Shown here piece by piece: positions 16,994-28,008 of a DNA stretch of 64,000 nt (its first letter is position 1; each line of letters starts with the position of its first letter). The notes beneath the pieces are model-generated. The model did not search any database. It was not told the origin of the DNA and saw only the letters and a list, made by a program, of their open reading frames with translations. Source of the stretch: Gemmatimonadota bacterium (lineage in GTDB: Bacteria; Gemmatimonadota; Gemmatimonadetes; Longimicrobiales; Gaopeijiaceae); NCBI GenBank assembly GCA_029262115.1, contig JAJCZZ010000104.1:1-64000 (forward strand). The letters are read 5' to 3'. The translations under genes and the position numbers were made by a program.

Positions 16994-17158
16994 ATCGGTC
17001 TGGAACTCTGTCGCCCGCTCCAGCAGGGTCGGTGAAGTCGTTGCCGCCTCCGGTCCGTCTTGGGTACGATTGGGCCCCAACGATACGTGGTGCTCCGAAC
17101 GGCGAACAAGGGAACCTGTGGGTTCCAGGGCACCGGCTTCCCGAATCGAGCCCGCTGC

Positions 17159-18061
17159 ATGCGCGACTCCCGCCTCACCGAACAGCGCAATCCTCGCTCC
17201 ACGAATGTGGATCGCTTGACTCCGCTCGAGATCGTGGACGTCATCAATACGGAGGACCGGGGGATTGCCGAGGCGGTGGGCGCCGAGCGCGCCGCCATCG
17301 CTCGGGCCATCGAGTTGGTGGAGGCGTGCTTCCGCGCGGGGGGACGCCTCATCTACGTGGGCGCCGGCACGTCCGGCAGACTCGGCGTGCTCGACGCCGC
17401 CGAGATGCCCCCCACCTACGGGACCGATCCGCGCATGGTGCAGGGCGTCATCGCCGGCGGGATGGAGGCGCTCGTCCGAGCTCAGGAAGGCGCCGAGGAC
17501 CACCCTGAGGACGGCGCCCGGGCCATGGACGAGAAGGAGGTCGGGGCGCACGACTTGGTGCTGGGCATCGCGACGTCGGGCACGACGCCGTACGTGCACG
17601 GGGCGCTCGCTCGGGCCCGGGAGCGGGGCGCCTACACCGGCTTCCTGCTGTGCACGCCACCGCCCGACTCGCTCCGTGCCACGCACGACGTGGTCATCGC
17701 GCCGCTCGTCGGACCGGAAGTCGTGACCGGTTCGACGCGTATGAAGGCGGGCACGGCCACCAAGCTGGTCCTCAACACCATCACCACGGGCGCCATGATC
17801 CGGATGGGCAAGGTCTGGGGCAACCTCATGGTCGATCTCCAGGTCACGTGCCAGAAGCTCCAGGACCGCGGCGAGCGCATCCTTCAGGAGATGCTGAACG
17901 TCGACCGGATTCGTGCCACGGAATTGTTGGCCGCCGCCGATGGTCACGTGAAGACCGCCCTGGTCATGGGGCGGCTCGACGTGGACGCGGAGGAGGCTCG
18001 GCGCAGAATTTCCGACGCAGGCGGCGCCATTGCCCGGGTTCTGGAGCCACAGGGTGGTTAG
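17159..18061 (+). CDS. murQ: N-acetylmuramic acid 6-phosphate etherase
   Basis: A 300-residue SIS-fold lyase that removes the D-lactyl ether from N-acetylmuramate 6-phosphate in peptidoglycan recycling. The N terminus LTEQRNPRSTNVDRLTPLEIV, the GAGTSGRLGVLDAAEMPPTYG motif and the GSTRMKAGTATKLVLN motif are diagnostic. Length is standard. It is divergent from the M20 hydrolase and followed 13 bases later by a glycosyltransferase gene. Other recycling genes (anmK, nagZ) are not in the window. Confidence 0.95.
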   Translation: MRDSRLTEQRNPRSTNVDRLTPLEIVDVINTEDRGIAEAVGAERAAIARAIELVEACFRAGGRLIYVGAGTSGRLGVLDAAEMPPTYGTDPRMVQGVIAGGMEALVRAQEGAEDHPEDGARAMDEKEVGAHDLVLGIATSGTTPYVHGALARARERGAYTGFLLCTPPPDSLRATHDVVIAPLVGPEVVTGSTRMKAGTATKLVLNTITTGAMIRMGKVWGNLMVDLQVTCQKLQDRGERILQEMLNVDRIRATELLAAADGHVKTALVMGRLDVDAEEARRRISDAGGAIARVLEPQGG

Positions 18062-18074
18062 GGGATGGGAGCGG

Positions 18075-19805
18075 ATGCGATGGGCCCTGCTCGGCGTGGT
18101 GACCGTGCTGTCCGCTGCGGTCGTGTACCTCGCCTTCAACGGGGCCCCCCACACCGGCGGTGACAACGCCGGATACGTCACGCTGGCGTATTCCCTGCTT
18201 GCCGAGGGGAGCTATACCGAGCTGTTCGATCCGGCTCGTAACCCCCACACCAAGTATCCGCCGATCTTCCCGGCGCTCCTCGCGCTCCTGATGTTCCTGG
18301 GCGTCCGCACCTGGGCGGGCCTCAAGATGGTCGCCGCGGTGTCCACGGTCGGTGCCGTGGCCGCGACGTTCCTGTGGGCCGAGCGGAGGCTGGGCGCGAT
18401 CGGCGGGGCGGCCGTGGCGACCGCGGTGGCGTTCTCCGCGGGCGTGGTCTATTACAGCCACTGGATCCTCTCCGACCCCACCTTCGTGTTCTTCACCATG
18501 GCCGCGCTGTGGGCGCTGCAGCGGGCGGACGAGGCAGGCCCAGGGGACGGTGGTGCCGACGAGGGGGCCGAGGACAGTGGAGCCGACGAAGGTGCACCGG
18601 GCCGCACGGCCCGCGCGACCGGGTGGCTCGCGGCGGGTGTCGTGCTGACGGGGCTCGCCTACTTCACGCGCTCGGCCGGCCTCCCACTGGTGGTGGCACT
18701 CTTCCTCTGGCTGGGGCTGGCCAAGCGGTGGAAGGCGTTGGCGGCCTCCGCGGTGGCGCTCGGTCTTCCCGCCCTGCTCTGGATGGCCCGCGCCGCCTCC
18801 GTGGACACGGCGCAGGCGCGTTACGGCTCCGAGTTCTGGATGGTGGACCCGTATCAACCGGCGCTGGGCACCGTGGGTGTCGGGGGGATGGTAGCACGGG
18901 TGTTCGGCAACCTGACAGGATACCTGACACGGCACGTCCCGGCCGGGATCGTCGGACCGACGGGCCCGTCCGCGACGCTGCTCGGCGTCCTCGTCGTCGT
19001 GGCCGGTGTGACCGGATGGGTCATGATCGTGCGCGATCGGCGCGGGCCGGCGGAGCTGTTCTTCCCGCTGTACGCGGGGCTGATCCTTCTGTGGCCCGAG
19101 GTCTGGTCCGGCGACCGCTTCGCCCTGCCGCTCCTACCGTTGCTCTTCGCGTATGGGGCGCATGCGGTGGTCCGGTTCAGCCGTCGACTCGGGCCGGTGG
19201 CGCCCCGGATCGCGGGGGCGGTGGCGCTGCTTGCCGTTCTTCTGCCCGCGCTGGGCGGCCTGGGCGACGCGATCGGTGCCGCCCGGGCGTGCGGCCCCAT
19301 GACCCGCGCCCAGGGGGCCTTCGCGTGCTACGGTGGGGGCTACGCGGACTTCGCCGAGGCGGCGAGCTGGTCGGGGGCCAACCTCCCCGAAGGATCCGCC
19401 GTGCTGTCACGAAAGCCCCGGCTCTTCTTCGTCCTCAGCGGCGTGCCGAGCCGAACGTTCCCGTTCGCGGCGGACGCCGCGGCGCACACACAGGAAGCGG
19501 ACGCGGTCGGCGCGAGGTACGAGTTGATGGACCAGATCGACCGATTGGCCGCGGCCTATGTGGGCGGGGCCATTCAGGACGCGCCCGGCTCCTACTGCTC
19601 GGTGCGCGCGTTCGGACAGGGGCCCGGCGTCGGTACGCACCTGCTGGGTGTCCTGTCGCCGGACTCGCGGGCGCGGGGCGCGGCCGAGGACGACGGCTCC
19701 ATCCGGATCGAGGGGTGCCCGGAGTCGTACGTCCGGGACGGCGCGAGCGTGGAGAGCTACTCCCCGTCCACGCGCATCCCACTGCTCGAGCGACTCGACC
19801 CATAG
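18075..19805 (+). CDS. GT-C-fold membrane glycosyltransferase-like protein, paralog 1
   Basis: A 576-residue polytopic protein with about ten membrane segments. The first periplasmic loop has GGDNAGYVTLAYSLL with an acidic D-N pair, then HTKYPPIFPALLALL, the arrangement of ArnT/PMT-like (GT39/GT83) transferases that use polyprenyl-phosphate sugars. A low-complexity Asp/Gly/Glu insert lies near residues 155-180. I chose the ATG at 18075 because an upstream start would overlap murQ. The 3' end overlaps the convergent gene at 19757 by 49 bases. A paralog is at 48378. Acceptor and sugar are unknown. Confidence 0.8.
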   Translation: MRWALLGVVTVLSAAVVYLAFNGAPHTGGDNAGYVTLAYSLLAEGSYTELFDPARNPHTKYPPIFPALLALLMFLGVRTWAGLKMVAAVSTVGAVAATFLWAERRLGAIGGAAVATAVAFSAGVVYYSHWILSDPTFVFFTMAALWALQRADEAGPGDGGADEGAEDSGADEGAPGRTARATGWLAAGVVLTGLAYFTRSAGLPLVVALFLWLGLAKRWKALAASAVALGLPALLWMARAASVDTAQARYGSEFWMVDPYQPALGTVGVGGMVARVFGNLTGYLTRHVPAGIVGPTGPSATLLGVLVVVAGVTGWVMIVRDRRGPAELFFPLYAGLILLWPEVWSGDRFALPLLPLLFAYGAHAVVRFSRRLGPVAPRIAGAVALLAVLLPALGGLGDAIGAARACGPMTRAQGAFACYGGGYADFAEAASWSGANLPEGSAVLSRKPRLFFVLSGVPSRTFPFAADAAAHTQEADAVGARYELMDQIDRLAAAYVGGAIQDAPGSYCSVRAFGQGPGVGTHLLGVLSPDSRARGAAEDDGSIRIEGCPESYVRDGASVESYSPSTRIPLLERLDP

Positions 19806-20419
19806 AGCACCGCGAGCGCGACCCCGAACAGAACGTGTTCCACGAACGCGCGCTCCTGGGGATCCAACTCCGTCAGCATCGGGCCGAGTCCCGGCAGCTT
19901 GCCGACCGCGGAGTGGCCGCCGAGCAGCTTCGAGATGCCGCCCACGTCCATCGCGACGTATTCCGCGCCCCCGTACACCGCGCCCTTGAGGAGAGGCGGT
20001 CCGGGGATCCACGGCTCGAGGAGCGTCCCGTAGACCAGCCCCTGAACCGCGCCGGCCAGAACGCGGTCGGGCGTCTGATCGTCGAGCGAACCGATCTCCG
20101 CCTCTCCCGCCAGGAGCGGCCGAACCAGCTCAATGACGACTGCGGCGCCCGCACCCGCGGCGGCGGCCCGGACGGTCGACAGAAGGCCTCCGCTCTTGCC
20201 GGGTCCCCACCGATCCAGCGCTTTGGCGGCCAGGGCGACGGCCGCCGTGGTGATGACCTCGTTCAGGTCCAGCGCCGCCGGCGACTCGTCCTTCTTCAGA
20301 GATGGGAGACTGGCGCGTTCTTTGAGACTCGCGAGTTTCCGGGTACCTCGGGTCGGTGCCTCCCGAGCGCGCTCGAAGGCGAATCCGAGACGGTACCAGG
20401 GGCTATCTTTGGAGGACAT
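19757..20419 (-). CDS. Hypothetical 220-residue membrane-associated protein
   Basis: Family not recognised. The N terminus (MSSKDSPWYRLGFAFERAR) is basic and polar. Hydrophobic segments follow near residues 52-66 (ITTAAVALAAKAL), 78-95 (AAAAGAGAAVVIELV) and close to the C terminus (HVLFGVALAVLYG), and a Gly-rich stretch with repeated G-G-A patterns fills the middle. The ATG at 20419 faces the start of the large peptidase/barrel gene with only 6 bases between the start codons. The 3' end overlaps the convergent glycosyltransferase gene by 49 bases. Confidence 0.7.
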   Translation of the reverse strand: MSSKDSPWYRLGFAFERAREAPTRGTRKLASLKERASLPSLKKDESPAALDLNEVITTAAVALAAKALDRWGPGKSGGLLSTVRAAAAGAGAAVVIELVRPLLAGEAEIGSLDDQTPDRVLAGAVQGLVYGTLLEPWIPGPPLLKGAVYGGAEYVAMDVGGISKLLGGHSAVGKLPGLGPMLTELDPQERAFVEHVLFGVALAVLYGSSRSSSGMRVDGE

Positions 20420-20425
20420 CGGCGG

Positions 20426-23400
20426 ATGACGTCGGCGGGGAAGGGGCGGGCTCCAACGTTCGCTACGGCGTGGTGCGTTTTCAAGGCGATGGCCGCGCGA
20501 GGGTTCATTCGGGCGGCTGGCGTGGCCGCGTGCGTGGCGCTGGCGCTCTCGGCCGGCGGAGGTTCGAGCCTGGAGGCCCAGGCACCCGATGAGAACTGGC
20601 GCACCATTGAGACGGAACACTTTCGGGTGACGTTTCCGGACGTTCTGGAACCGCTCGCGCGCAGGGCCGCGGCCCGAGCGGAGTCGGCGCGCGCGCGTCT
20701 TGCCGAAGCGTTCCTGGACGCCCCCGACGGCATCATCGACATCGTCCTGTCCGACCACACGGACATCGCGAACGGGAACGCGCGGCTGACCCCCTCCAAG
20801 CGCATACGCGTGTTTGCCGCTCCCCCCGTCGACGATCCGAATCTCGGCTACTTCGACGAGTGGATCGACCTCGTCATTACCCACGAACTCGCCCACATCT
20901 ATCACCTGGACCGGGCTGGCGCCCTCGGCCGCTTCATCCGGTCGATCGTGGGTCGGTACCCGGGCGGTTGGCCGGTCTTTCCCAACACGGCAGCTCCGCG
21001 CTGGACCGTCGAGGGGCTGGCGACGTGGTACGAGTCGCGCCTGTCCGATGCCGGACGCCAGCACGGGACGTTCCAGGAGACGGTGCTGCGCACCGCCACT
21101 CTGGAGGGGAAGTTCGAGGGGATCGATCAGGCCTCCGGCGACTCCCCTGTGTGGCCCGGCGGAAATCGTACCTACCTCTACGGCTCCGAGTTCTTCGACT
21201 TCCTGCTCGACAAGCACGGCGAGGACAAGATGGCCGCCTTCGTCCAAGCGCTTGGCGGTCAGTGGATCCCCTATCGGCTGAACGCGGCCGGGCGCGACGC
21301 GTTCGGCGTGAGCCTGTCCTCTGAGTGGTCGGCCTGGCGAGCGGCACTGGAGGGTCGCTACGAGGGACTCGACCGGGAACTCGCCCGCTTCGGCCCCATC
21401 ACCGAGCCCGAAGTCATCTCAGAGCCGAGCCGGGTGGCCCTGCACACCCGTGTATCCCCCGACGGAGCAACGGTGGCGTACGCGCGCTCGGACGGACGCT
21501 CCGACACGCAGATCCGGGAGATGGCACCGGACGGATCGGACAGCCGCAAGCGCACCCGGTCGTCTGGGGTGCCGACCTTCGACTGGCTCGACAACGAGGA
21601 GTTGATCGTCGCACAGTTCGAGCAGGACGGCCCGTACCGCGTGTATAGCGACCTCTACCGCGTGGACCCGTCGGGCGGAGAGCACCGCGTGACGTACGGC
21701 GCCCGGTTGATCAACCCCACGGTCGCGCCGGACGGCGGCCTGGTCGCGGTGCAGGGCGGGGAGGGCACCACCTGGCTCGCGCGCGTCGACCGGGACGCGA
21801 CGGTCACGCCGCTGACCCTACCCGACCCGGACGTCCACTGGGCGTATCCGGCCTTCTCCCCGGACGGGCGGTGGATTGCGGCGTCTCGGTGGACGCCCGG
21901 CGCGATGCTCGACGTGGTCGTGCTCGACGCCGCCTCGGGGTCGGTCATCACCACGGTCACCAACGATCGGGCGGTCGACCTGTCCGCGGCGTGGAGCCCG
22001 GATGGCCGTTGGCTCGTCTGGGGTTCGGACCGCACGGGCATCCAGAACATCCTGGCCGTACCGATCGATCCGGGCACGGGACGCGCCGCGGGACCGGTGC
22101 GGCTGGCCACCAACGTCCGCACGGCTGTCGCCTATCCGGAGGTGGATCCAAGCGGCCGGTGGATCTACGTGAGCGGGTACCACGCCGACGGGTGGGGCAT
22201 CGAGCGGGTGCCGTTCACGCCCGACGCCTGGCCGGAGGCGCCCCGGGCCGACGACCGTTTCGCCGCCGACTACGGCCCCCCCGACCCCGACGCCCGCGCC
22301 GGCGGGCCGGTGCAAGCGTACGACCCGCTCCGGTCGCTAGTGCCCACCTATTGGATCCCGTTGGCCGAGGAGCCGATCCTCACGTCGCCCGTGCGCGGCG
22401 ACAGCGTGTTCGTACGCAGCCGGGAACTGCTGGGATACGCGGTCGGTGCGGAGATCGGTGGGGAAGACCTCGTGAGTCGCCACTTCTACTCGGCGTCTGC
22501 CCGCGTCTTCGTCGACGATCCCGCCAAGGCCGATCTCGGCGCCTCGTACACCTGGGCGGGACTGGGCAACCCGCGCCTCGGTGTGGCCTTCCGGCAACTG
22601 TGGTCGAGCGACGGCGCCCGTCTCGCCAGACCGGAGACCGGCCCCTTCGATACTCTGTTCGTCCTGGAACGCGGCCGGTCGATCTCGGGTTCGGCGACGT
22701 GGCTGCGTCAAACGATCCGCACCGTCTCGACGCTGACCGCGAGCGGAGGCTACGGGTGGGATACCCGATTCCTCCTCGACAACGCACTGCGGCCGACCAC
22801 CGAGTACAACCTGAGCGCACCGGAGGCCCGGATCGCCGACGCCCGCCTCACGTTGAACATCAGCCGAGCCCGCTCCCACGCCATGCAGATGGGGCCGGCC
22901 AACGGACCGGCGCTCTTCGTCCGGGCCCGTCGGGTGTTCGACCTCACCGTAGCCGACTCGCTGAGCGGCGTGGCCGGAGCGGACCGGTCGGTCGACGAGG
23001 TCCTCACGCAGTTTCGGCTCTACAAGACGCTCGGGGGTCCGGGCTTCGCGGCGCACGTCCTCGCGCTCCGGACCGCGTTCGGGATCGCGGGCGGCCCCGA
23101 CGCCGACGCCAGTTGGTTCAACGCGGGCGGGTCGACCGGGTCGCCCGAGCGGATCACCGGGCTGGAGCTGTTCGGCGGATCGTCGGCCTTCTTCGGCGTG
23201 CGCGGGTACGACCGGAACAGCCGGTCGGGCCGGTTGGCGTGGACGAGCACGCTCGAGTACCGCGTTCCGCTCCTGAACGTCCACCGGGGCGTGGGCGCTG
23301 TGCCCGCGTACATGGACCGGGTGTTCGGGACCGTCTTCCTCGACGCCGGGAACGCGTGGGGACCCGATGTGTCGCTGTCGGGCTTCACGAACGAGCGCAG

Positions 23401-23548
23401 ATCGACGTTGGCGGGCGCCGGCGCGGAGCTTGCGGCAGACTTCCTGTTCTTCTGGACGGAGCCGTTGCGCATCCGCGTAGGGGCGGCTGCGCCGCTCGTG
23501 GAAGGTGACGGCGGGCGCGTCTACCTACGGCTGGGGTTGGCGTTCTAA
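20426..23548 (+). CDS. Outer-membrane protein: HEXXH peptidase domain, beta-propeller and C-terminal barrel
   Basis: A 1040-residue exported protein. A signal peptide (hydrophobic run near residues 26-48, cleavage around LEAQA) is followed by a gluzincin-like domain with H153-E-L-A-H157 and the likely third ligand E196 in VEGLATWYE. Residues of about 320-610 contain TolB/PD40-type propeller repeats (PDGRWIAASR, PDGRWLVWGSD, PSGRWIYVSGY). From about 690 alternating strands lead to a terminal Phe (VYLRLGLAF), as in BamA/surface-antigen barrels. GGAGG at 20411-20415 supports the ATG at 20426; ATG 20489 is an alternative. Likely a surface or periplasm-facing zinc peptidase anchored in the outer membrane. 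Confidence 0.85.
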   Translation: MTSAGKGRAPTFATAWCVFKAMAARGFIRAAGVAACVALALSAGGGSSLEAQAPDENWRTIETEHFRVTFPDVLEPLARRAAARAESARARLAEAFLDAPDGIIDIVLSDHTDIANGNARLTPSKRIRVFAAPPVDDPNLGYFDEWIDLVITHELAHIYHLDRAGALGRFIRSIVGRYPGGWPVFPNTAAPRWTVEGLATWYESRLSDAGRQHGTFQETVLRTATLEGKFEGIDQASGDSPVWPGGNRTYLYGSEFFDFLLDKHGEDKMAAFVQALGGQWIPYRLNAAGRDAFGVSLSSEWSAWRAALEGRYEGLDRELARFGPITEPEVISEPSRVALHTRVSPDGATVAYARSDGRSDTQIREMAPDGSDSRKRTRSSGVPTFDWLDNEELIVAQFEQDGPYRVYSDLYRVDPSGGEHRVTYGARLINPTVAPDGGLVAVQGGEGTTWLARVDRDATVTPLTLPDPDVHWAYPAFSPDGRWIAASRWTPGAMLDVVVLDAASGSVITTVTNDRAVDLSAAWSPDGRWLVWGSDRTGIQNILAVPIDPGTGRAAGPVRLATNVRTAVAYPEVDPSGRWIYVSGYHADGWGIERVPFTPDAWPEAPRADDRFAADYGPPDPDARAGGPVQAYDPLRSLVPTYWIPLAEEPILTSPVRGDSVFVRSRELLGYAVGAEIGGEDLVSRHFYSASARVFVDDPAKADLGASYTWAGLGNPRLGVAFRQLWSSDGARLARPETGPFDTLFVLERGRSISGSATWLRQTIRTVSTLTASGGYGWDTRFLLDNALRPTTEYNLSAPEARIADARLTLNISRARSHAMQMGPANGPALFVRARRVFDLTVADSLSGVAGADRSVDEVLTQFRLYKTLGGPGFAAHVLALRTAFGIAGGPDADASWFNAGGSTGSPERITGLELFGGSSAFFGVRGYDRNSRSGRLAWTSTLEYRVPLLNVHRGVGAVPAYMDRVFGTVFLDAGNAWGPDVSLSGFTNERRSTLAGAGAELAADFLFFWTEPLRIRVGAAAPLVEGDGGRVYLRLGLAF

Positions 23549-24327: not shown

Positions 24328-27300
24328 ATGCCGCGCGTGCACCAGCCCAGACCCATGAGCAAAGAAGCAGTCATTTTCAACGACGTCGTGCCCGAGGACG
24401 TCCCGGCGGCTGAGCTGACCGAGAACGCGCGCATTGTCCTGGGCAAGCGATACCTGAAAAAGGACAGGGACGGGACCCCGACGGAGGCGCCCGAAACCAT
24501 GTTCTGGCGGGTGGCCCGGTCGATCGCGGACGTGGACACGCACTACGGAGCGTCGGAGGCGGCCGTCGGCGAGGTGGCCCGCCAGTTCTACGACCTGATG
24601 ATTAACGGAAAGTTCGAGCCGAACTCCCCGACGCTGATGAATGCCGGGCGGCCCCTGGGGCAGCTGTCCGCGTGCTTCGTCCTGCCCGTGGACGACGCCA
24701 TCAGCAACGGAAAGAGCGGCATCTACGACACGCTCAAGGCGATGGCGCTCGTGCATCAGTCCGGCGGTGGGACGGGCTTCGGCTTCTCGCGACTCCGCCC
24801 CGAAGGCGATCCCGTGCGCTCGACCATGGGCGTGGCTTCCGGTCCGGTCTCCTTCATGAAGCTGTACGACGCCAGCACCGAGGTCGTGAAGCAGGGCGGA
24901 ACGCGTCGGGGCGCGAACATGGGCATCCTGCGGGTGGACCATCCGGACATCCGCACGTTCATCATGTGCAAGAACGACACGACGCAGATCACCAACTTCA
25001 ACATCAGCGTTGCCATCACGGACCGCTTCATGGAGGCGGTGGCCGCGGGGGAGGAGTACGACCTGATCCACCCGAAGACCGGCGAGGTCATGGGCCGGGA
25101 GAACGCCACCGAGATCTTCGACATGATCATCCACGGCGCCTGGCTCACCGGCGAGCCGGGTACGTTCTTCATCGACCGCGCCAACGAGTACAACCCGGTA
25201 CCGGAGCTCGGGAGCTACGAGGCTACGAATCCATGTGTCACGGCCGATACGTGGGTGCACACCGCTGACGGTCCGCGTCAGGTCTCGGACCTCGTCGGCC
25301 GCGCCACGGTCGTCCGCGTGCGTGGTCAAGACCACGCCACCACGGAGGAGGGCTTCTTCCGGACCGGCGTGAAGGACGTCGTCCGCCTCGTCACGTCCGA
25401 GGGCTTTGAGCTTCGTCTGACCAAGGATCATCTCGTGCGCCGGGCCGCGTCGTGTACGCGCTATCGCATTCAGGAGGAGTGGTGCCCGGCTGGCGAGCTG
25501 GCCGTTGGCGATCGGGTGGTCCTGAACGATCACCGCGATGCCCCGCAGTGGGCCGGCGAGCACACGCGGGAGGAAGGCTACCTGCTCGGACTCCTTCTCG
25601 GAGATGGCACGCTGAAGTCGGACAAAGCCGTCCTGTCTGTCTGGGAGGAGGCCTTGGCCGCCAATGACGGTCCGGCGCGCGGGCTGCGTCCGGGCGTCCG
25701 CGCGGTCATGGCCGAGGCGGAGTCGGCAGCGCGTACGTTGTCGCACCGCTCGGACTTCGCGGGCTGGTCGCAGGTGGCGGGACGCGGCGAGTACCGGATG
25801 AGCCTCGCGGCCGTGCGTGACCTGGCGACCGCGCTGGGCATGGTGTCTGGGCGGGGTGGGAAGACGGTCACCCCGACCGTGGAGCGAGGCTCAAGCGCCT
25901 TCTATGCGGGCCTCCTGCGCGGCCTGTTCGACGCGGACGGTTCGGTGCAGGGCTCACCGGCCAAGGGCGTCAGCGTGCGCTTGGCTCAGTCGGACTTGTC
26001 TGTGCTCCAGGCTGTGCAGCGTATGCTGCTCCGTCTCGGGATCGCGTCGTCGGTTTACCAGGATCGCCGCTCCGCCGGCACGAGCGAGCTTCCGGACGGA
26101 AAGGGAGGCACGGCCGTCTACGCGGTCCGTGCGCAGCACGAGCTGGTCATCTCCCAGGACAACATGGGCGTGTTTGCGGAGCGGGTGGGCTTCGGCGACC
26201 GTGACAAGTCGGCGCGCCTGGCCCATCTCCTGGGCTCGTATGCGCGCACGCCCAACCGGGAACGCTTCACTGCCACAGTCTCCGCAGTGGTAGCGGACGG
26301 GGCGGAAGACGTGTACGACGTACAAGTCCCCGGCGTCAACGCATTCGACGCGAACGGCGTGGTCGTACACAACTGTGGCGAACAGCCGCTCCTTCCCTAC
26401 GACGTCTGCAACCTCGGCTCGATCAACCTGGGCAAGTTCGTGAAGCCGGACGCGCGTCCGGGCACGGACCCGGCCGAAGGCATCGACTGGGACGCGCTGC
26501 GCACCGTGGTGCATCTCGCCACGCACTTCCTCGACAACGTCATCGACGCGAACAAGTACCCGCTTCCCGAGATCCACGAGTTGGCGCAGAACATCCGCCG
26601 CATCGGTCTCGGGGTGATGGGCTGGGCCGACATGCTCGTGCGGCTCGGAATCGCGTACGACTCCCCTGAAGGCGTGGACCTCGGGCGGATGGTCATGGAG
26701 TTCCTGAACGAGGAATCGCGCAACGCCTCGGAGAAGCTGGCCGAGACGCGCGGCGTCTTCCCCGCGTGGGAGGCGTCGATCTGGGGGCCGGACGAGACGG
26801 CCGCTCGTCGGGCGGACGGGAGCCGCGTGCGGGAGTACCGCGAGCTGCGCAACTGCAACCTGACCACGGTTGCCCCCACCGGTACGATCTCGATCTTCGC
26901 CGGCTGCTCGGGCGGCATCGAGCCCCTGTTCGCCGTCGCATTCATGCGCAACCAGGCGGGCTCGCTCATGCCCGACGTGAATCCCGACTTCGTGCGCATG
27001 GCCAAAGAAGGGGGATGGTACTCCGACGAGCTCATGGAGCAGATCGCCGAGGAGGGCCACATCCACTTCGATCAGGTGCCGGAGGACGTGCAGCGCGTCT
27101 TCCGGACCGCGCACGACATCACGCCGGAGTGGCACGTGCGCATGCAGGCCGCCTTCCAGGAGCACACGGATTCGGCCATCTCCAAGACCACGAACTTCCC
27201 GCACGAGGCCACCGAGGACGACGTGCGTGCCATCTACGAGTTGGCGTACGAGCTGGGCACGAAGGGCGTGACGGTCTACCGCGACGGCTCACGGCAGGGC

Positions 27301-28008
27301 CAAGTGCTCTCGACGGGTAAGACGGGCAAGGGAGATTCCGCTGATGCCTCGACGGCGGTCGTCGAGCTCCGGGCTCAGGTCGCGGACGCCCGCGAAGAGG
27401 CGCACAACCTGCGCATCGAAGTCGAGCGCGTGAGGGCCGAACTCGCCGACCGCGACCAGACGGCCGGGGCGTCACGCCACAAGCGGCAGCGGCCCGCCGC
27501 GCTACGCGGCTTCACCATGAAGATGAACTCGCCCCTCGGCGACCTGTACGTGACCATCAACGAAGACCAGAACGGCCGCCCGTTCGAGGTCTTCTGCACG
27601 CTCGGCAAGGCGGGCGGCGCCGCCATGGCGGACGCCGAGGCCATCGGCCGCCTGATGTCCCTCGCGCTCCGCTCCGGCATCAGCATCCGGCAGGTGAAGG
27701 ACCAACTCCGTGGCATCTCTTGCGACCGCGCCGTGGGCCTCGGCCCGAACAAGGTGCTGTCCGCGCCCGACGCCATCGGCCAAGCCATCGAGCGCTACCT
27801 CGAGGAGAAGCAGGGCATCCAGGAGGCCCTGCCACTCACGGTGGGCCGAACGGTCGGCGCCGCCCAGGCGACGGCACAGTCGGATGCCTTCCACCAGGCG
27901 CAGGAGGAGGCCTTCATCGGATCGTGCCCGGAGTGCGGCGCGGGCCACCTCGCGTATGAGGAAGGCTGCATGAAGTGCCACGTGTGCGGGTATAGCGAGT
28001 GCGGATGA
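24328..28008 (+). CDS. nrdJ: Adenosylcobalamin-dependent (class II) ribonucleotide reductase, intein-containing precursor
   Basis: A 1226-residue precursor, 846 residues after splicing, that reduces ribonucleotides to deoxyribonucleotides using B12. Marks: first redox Cys in [32 protein letters not shown], the N-x-C-x-E active-site motif in [13 protein letters not shown] (interrupted by an intein, residues 303-682), and [19 protein letters not shown]. The C-terminal part has a coiled coil, a TSCPD-type domain and a Cys-rich tail with CPEC and CHVC pairs for thioredoxin relay or zinc. AGGAG at 24313-24317 supports the ATG at 24328. It is controlled by its own promoter with NrdR-type boxes. Confidence 0.95.
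   Translation: [1226 protein letters not shown]
25234..26373 (+). other. Intein with LAGLIDADG endonuclease domain inside nrdJ
   Basis: A 380-residue in-frame insertion. It begins with Cys ([13 protein letters not shown], block A) and ends VVVHN followed by the extein Cys of CGEQPLL. Block B is seen as LTKDH and the C-terminal splice region as [16 protein letters not shown]. Two LAGLIDADG-type motifs, [11 protein letters not shown] (near precursor residue 419) and [13 protein letters not shown] (near 528), indicate a homing endonuclease with both catalytic acids present, so it may still be mobile. It lies exactly at the catalytic Cys of the reductase, so splicing is required for activity. 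Confidence 0.95.

Follow-up and report, generated by a model that had tools for sequence, protein, structure and literature searches.

What kind of protein is encoded on the forward strand at 20426..23548, and where in the cell envelope would it work? Coordinates here are positions within the window, that is, the whole 64,000-nt stretch of DNA analysed, read on its forward strand. A first, sequence-only reading of the letters had described a zinc peptidase, a TolB-like propeller and a BamA-like barrel in a single chain. On re-reading the sequence its open reading frame, coordinates and residue numbers proved correct, and the three-part composition was upheld, both in the sequence and when models were set against solved structures. 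Taken together, sequence, Pfam and NCBIfam matches and AlphaFold2 (AF2) describe a protein of 1040 aa that consists of a signal peptide, a gluzincin-like domain, a beta-propeller and an Omp85-type barrel.

Two start codons are candidates, ATG 20426 with a GGAGG 11 nt upstream, and ATG 20489 (residue 22), from which a shorter signal peptide would result. The signal peptide region (residues 1-52, 20426..20581) has the typical form, with a hydrophobic stretch followed within the first 50 residues by AQA as predicted cleavage point; AF2 gives pLDDT below 50 for residues 1-50, and AQ-PPDE is conserved among 27 orthologues. The region holds no lipobox cysteine. Scans for promoters and terminators gave no match. 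An open reading frame of 1724 aa at 18374-23548 was considered as a larger protein and rejected, being merely the open frame upstream of a G+C-rich gene.

The overall architecture was modelled for the whole protein with AF2 from an alignment of the 27 orthologues (mean column identity 50%). The model is confident (pLDDT 85.9, pTM 0.84) and lays out an alpha-rich peptidase at about 53-320, a propeller at about 337-596 and, over 672-1036, long beta strands. Between propeller and barrel lies a linker with short strands only (residues 601-671, 22226..22438). When the whole protein was compared with the PDB by Foldseek, none of the 50 matches listed was described as a TolB propeller combined with a BamA barrel.

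The N-terminal domain (residues 53-327, 20582..21406) is the part that sequence databases detect least. Its assignment as a gluzincin-like zinc peptidase comes from conservation, from Foldseek and from a separate AF2 model of this domain, built with 57 homologues (pLDDT 87.6, pTM 0.87). The protein contains a single HExxH, H153-E-L-A-H157 (20882..20896), where 0.01 would be expected from composition; this predicted zinc-binding and catalytic motif lies on helix 146-161. E196 (21011..21013), the predicted third zinc ligand, sits within W-T-V-E-G-L-A on a second helix, 192-207. H153, E154 and H157 are kept in 111/111 and E196 in 112/112 of the aligned homologues with letters at these positions, set against the 50% mean column identity of the orthologue alignment, and both the HExxH and the Glu are invariant across the 57-sequence alignment of the domain. 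Searched alone with Foldseek, the domain finds a Colwellia aminopeptidase, clostridial and vibrio collagenases, lugdulysin (M30) and M61 and M1 enzymes. The best 35 matches are all gluzincins (M1, M9, M30, M61) with E-values from 7e-6 to 6e-4, at a moderate likeness of fold (TMq about 0.5). Thus the gluzincin proposed earlier from H153-E-L-A-H157 and E196 has gained a matching fold, with an HExxH on one helix and the downstream Glu on another in the model. The same HExxH, W-x-x-E-G-x-A helix and Foldseek fold are shared by the families M1, M9, M30 and M61 and by the Pfam families Peptidase_MA_2, DUF1570 and BSP. Zinc would be bound by H153, H157 and E196, with E154 as general base, and the protein is predicted to act as a peptidase.

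Pfam returned no peptidase match in the 1040-aa protein, and the NCBIfam peptidase match (E 0.014) lies far under its cut-off. Peptidase_MA_2 matches 1/27 full-length orthologues at E<=0.01, and domain-only Pfam scans of the 57 members reach best values of 6e-6 to 9e-4, too distant for a confident family. Peptidase_M48 was matched by 3/57 members at E>=0.007 and by the 1040-aa protein not at all, so that the domain does not qualify as an M48 peptidase of the BepA kind. Since the domain is poorly detected by the databases, the missing Pfam and NCBIfam matches are not read as its absence.

The propeller (residues 328-600, 21407..22225) is of the TolB/PD40 type, and the TolB-like blades of the first reading are borne out by PD40 in Pfam (1.7e-9), by TIGR02800 TolB repeats in NCBIfam and by Foldseek, which places the propeller with TolB at 8.3e-11. 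A profile of the 27-orthologue alignment matches TolB at 6.9e-23. The TIGR02800 score of 63.5 bits does not reach the equivalog cut-off of 343, and the likeness to TolB is one of the propeller; no TolB N-terminal domain was detected in the 1040-aa protein. Unlike TolB, the propeller is covalently attached to a barrel.

The C-terminal barrel (residues 672-1040, 22439..23545) is of the Omp85 type according to its AF2 strands, Foldseek and PF01103. Foldseek relates it to BamA, TamA and SAM with E-values from 4.7e-9 to 8e-8, a BamA/TamA-type fold. Its VRGY motif, found in loop 6 of Omp85 barrels (residues 925-928, 23198..23209), has R926-G927 invariant in 107/107 aligned homologues with letters there, and in the AF2 model it is followed by five strands, as in BamA. 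The chain ends in a beta-signal strand, RVYLRLGLAF (23516..23545), whose terminal Phe, F1040, is present in 106/106. The BamA-like C terminus with a terminal Phe therefore stood, and the expected barrel is present in the model; the start at residue 690 given earlier was slightly late, as strands begin at about 672. PF01103 scores 1.4e-4 and 22.0 bits in the 1040-aa protein, just below the gathering score of 24; it matches 21/27 orthologues at E<=0.01 and a distant relative (L143) at 29.8. Aligned by hhalign with the BamA of its own genome, the protein pairs VRGY with LRGY and brings an F-x-D-A-G-N strand and the terminal F into register, at a low probability obtained from a single sequence. 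Pfam found no POTRA domain in the 1040-aa protein. The model has 15 long strands (672-1036) and short ones before 672, and a canonical 16-strand topology needs a short strand there; this matters for orientation, as the side of the N-terminal domains is set by strand parity.

Is this a singular fusion? The search for the same architecture found it, and the combination is not the unusual one it had seemed: the gene is a conserved one of the Gemmatimonadota, widespread in that phylum. A plain protein scan of genome contigs returned no relatives, since it relied on peptides that are not conserved; a scan built on an alignment returned 303. Among near relatives, 51/59 genomes (own included) match at 1e-100 or better. 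In a phylum sample, 101/150 Gemmatimonadota genomes match at 1e-20, and 77/150 have a full-length match in a single segment. Matches were also obtained when genomes were sampled from the phylum to which a locus titled Latescibacteria belongs (57/60 genomes at 1e-30, often with several paralogues), and likewise for a locus titled Vicinamibacterales (27/99 genomes). In a tree of 62 proteins, nine rows, mostly titled Latescibacterota or Acidobacteriota, form a group with full support that lies inside the Gemmatimonadota and adjoins the 1040-aa protein. These nested rows suggest gene transfer out of the Gemmatimonadota into other phyla; individual rows may stem from mis-binned or mis-titled contigs. 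Rows with such titles inside the Gemmatimonadota tree (L066, L069, L071, L073, L105, L109 and L117) are without the MurQ/NrdJ neighbourhood described below.

More distant paralogues retain HExxH...WxxEGxA and the N-terminal layout and differ in their C termini. One group (L151-L158, L163-L168; 850-1050 aa) keeps the peptidase motif intact, in most members as HExxH ... RPSR ... WVxEGYA, lacks a VRGY-type motif in the late part of the chain and ends, for example, in ...SVIVRP. The genome itself encodes a second three-part protein of 1042 aa (L173:265-3390, at G000:C59:37600-41100), with a Peptidase_MA_2/BSP-like domain (GHELVHAF, WLIEGMAEY), four PD40 stretches and a barrel-like C terminus with IRGY. 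Over peptidase and propeller it aligns with the 1040-aa protein at 99.9% and 2.8e-34 by hhalign; it differs by a terminal Trp, by the lack of a Pfam Omp85 match and by belonging to a separate lineage. Also in the same genome, L172 and L174 (G000:C82:175800-179000) represent a TPR-like protein that has a related domain (HExxH...WFSEGLA) and no evident propeller or barrel.

How, then, might such a protein work? The whole is probably best explained, though with some reserve, as a barrel-anchored, periplasm-facing outer-membrane zinc peptidase with a TolB-like propeller. The POTRA-less Omp85-type barrel at the C terminus would anchor the propeller and the N-terminal gluzincin on the periplasmic side, where the membrane-tethered peptidase would most likely trim or clear envelope proteins or peptides, and where the propeller might dock partners or substrates; recruitment of substrates by the propeller, as in the first reading, is a guess. 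Sequence and model both speak for self-anchoring of the predicted peptidase. The periplasmic placement of peptidase and propeller is argued by analogy: in studied Omp85 proteins the N-terminal domains face the periplasm, among them PlpD, the one fusion of an enzyme to an Omp85 barrel that is known in detail, whose enzyme was once thought to be secreted and was shown to be periplasmic (PMC11116518).

The same domains could instead serve outer-membrane assembly, with propeller and barrel replacing a BamA-BamB pair and the peptidase clearing stalled substrates in a BepA-like quality control. Such a role is unlikely in our view. A BamA-BamB-like platform was proposed for WD40-Omp85 proteins by Heinz and Lithgow in 2014 (PMC4104836), BepA is a periplasmic zinc peptidase at BAM (PMC8423444), and the invariant VRGY hints at a barrel that is more than a passive anchor. 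On the other side, the 1040-aa protein has no POTRA domain, genes outside the Gemmatimonadota have unrelated neighbourhoods, and its own genome encodes a separate POTRA-bearing BamA (TIGR03303, 367 bits) as well as a second POTRA-Omp85. With these two at hand the protein need not be an assembly factor; it would be an addition to the assembly machinery.

The gene neighbourhood, counted over 66 loci with flanks, raises the question of a link to the cell wall. Upstream on the same strand lie MurQ, an N-acetylmuramic acid 6-phosphate etherase (17153..18061; TIGR00274, 352 bits, over cut-off; 42/66 loci), and a membrane glycosyltransferase-like protein (GT) with a weak Agl23-like match (18054..19805; TIGR03663, 28.8 bits, below cut-off; 33/66). 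A conserved 220-aa protein without a family match in Pfam or NCBIfam is encoded divergently from the gene on the reverse strand (19757..20419) and has the same place in 16/66 loci. Downstream, at 24373..28008 on the forward strand, a family match identifies the B12-dependent ribonucleotide reductase NrdJ, found near the gene in 42/66 loci, usually 26-850 bp away. Here NrdJ is interrupted by an intein that contains a LAGLIDADG endonuclease (25234-26376; TIGR01445/TIGR01443, PF14528); at least one relative, of 849 aa (L072), looks intein-free, judging by length. Gamma-glutamyltransferase (GGT) occurs in 25/66 loci and AnmK, named by its GLMSGTS motif only, in 18/66, and the typical order is GGT(-) / MurQ - AnmK - GT - (220-aa protein, -) - gene - NrdJ. 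Loci outside the Gemmatimonadota have none of these neighbours and no partner common across groups, so the MurQ-(AnmK)-GT-gene-NrdJ block is a weak functional hint.

Were the protein an accessory of wall recycling, its peptidase would release or trim wall-linked peptides or lipoproteins and so feed the adjacent MurQ, AnmK and GGT. The recurrence of these three and the usual position of MurQ-AnmK-GT just upstream on the same strand speak for this, but NrdJ is equally conserved without any link to the wall, the block may be plain gene order, and the copies titled Latescibacterota or Acidobacteriota are entirely without it. For these reasons wall recycling was rejected as the main explanation, and we consider it improbable.

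A third possibility, that the barrel takes peptidase and propeller outside the cell as a surface-exposed or secreted enzyme, was implied by the earlier proposal that surface or secreted proteins are processed. Enzyme-barrel fusions that reach the surface exist, for example autotransporters, and this precedent is what favours it, as nothing in this analysis does so directly. However, barrels of the BamA/TamA type, to which this one belongs, have their N-terminal domains in the periplasm, and the enzyme of PlpD stays there too (PMC11116518), which makes surface exposure and such processing very unlikely. Finally, use of the gluzincin fold as a structural domain or another hydrolase, to which the moderate fold similarity (TMq about 0.5) would be open, is highly doubtful given that every predicted ligand, like the general base, is strictly conserved in 111-112 homologues and in distant paralogues.

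If the barrel-anchored periplasmic peptidase is real, proteolysis would be built into an Omp85 protein itself, whereas BepA, for example, supplies it as a separate, soluble enzyme. It would add a concrete, testable predicted catalytic domain, conserved across a hard-to-culture phylum, to a known kind of propeller-barrel protein. Beyond this single protein, we can only speculate, and would not expect, that the WD40-Omp85 subfamily consists largely of barrel-anchored zinc peptidases whose domain the databases miss. These might provide phylum-wide outer-membrane proteolysis or quality control in the Gemmatimonadota, and by transfer in Latescibacterota and some Acidobacteriota, the substrates being common to peptidase and barrel. 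Among open-licence papers, none was found that describes the three-part protein or its peptidase domain. One similarly named class was considered and ruled out: PF00149, which defines the 'Metallo' Omp85 proteins, is a metallophosphoesterase domain, and for this reason the class name 'Omp85-metalloprotease' may be wrong. That class and its definition are from Heinz and Lithgow (PMC4104836).

Among known systems, the closest is the WD40-Omp85 layout named by the same authors in 2014, in a paper that accepts Omp85 subfamilies lacking POTRA domains (PMC4104836). Compared by its published description, it has the same POTRA-less Omp85 barrel after a TolB-like WD40/PD40 propeller; the text of that paper gives no peptidase domain before the propeller, whereas the 1040-aa protein has one by conservation and fold. 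A number of Omp85 subfamilies that carry enzyme or propeller domains have names but are uncharacterised (PMC11116518). PlpD resembles the protein in carrying an enzyme N-terminal to an Omp85 barrel on the periplasmic side, as we infer here, and differs in being a patatin-like lipase with a POTRA domain and no propeller (PMC11116518). BepA, a periplasmic HExxH zinc peptidase at the outer membrane, could be a functional analogue, although it belongs to M48, another gluzincin family, has a TPR domain and possesses neither a barrel nor a propeller of its own (PMC8423444).
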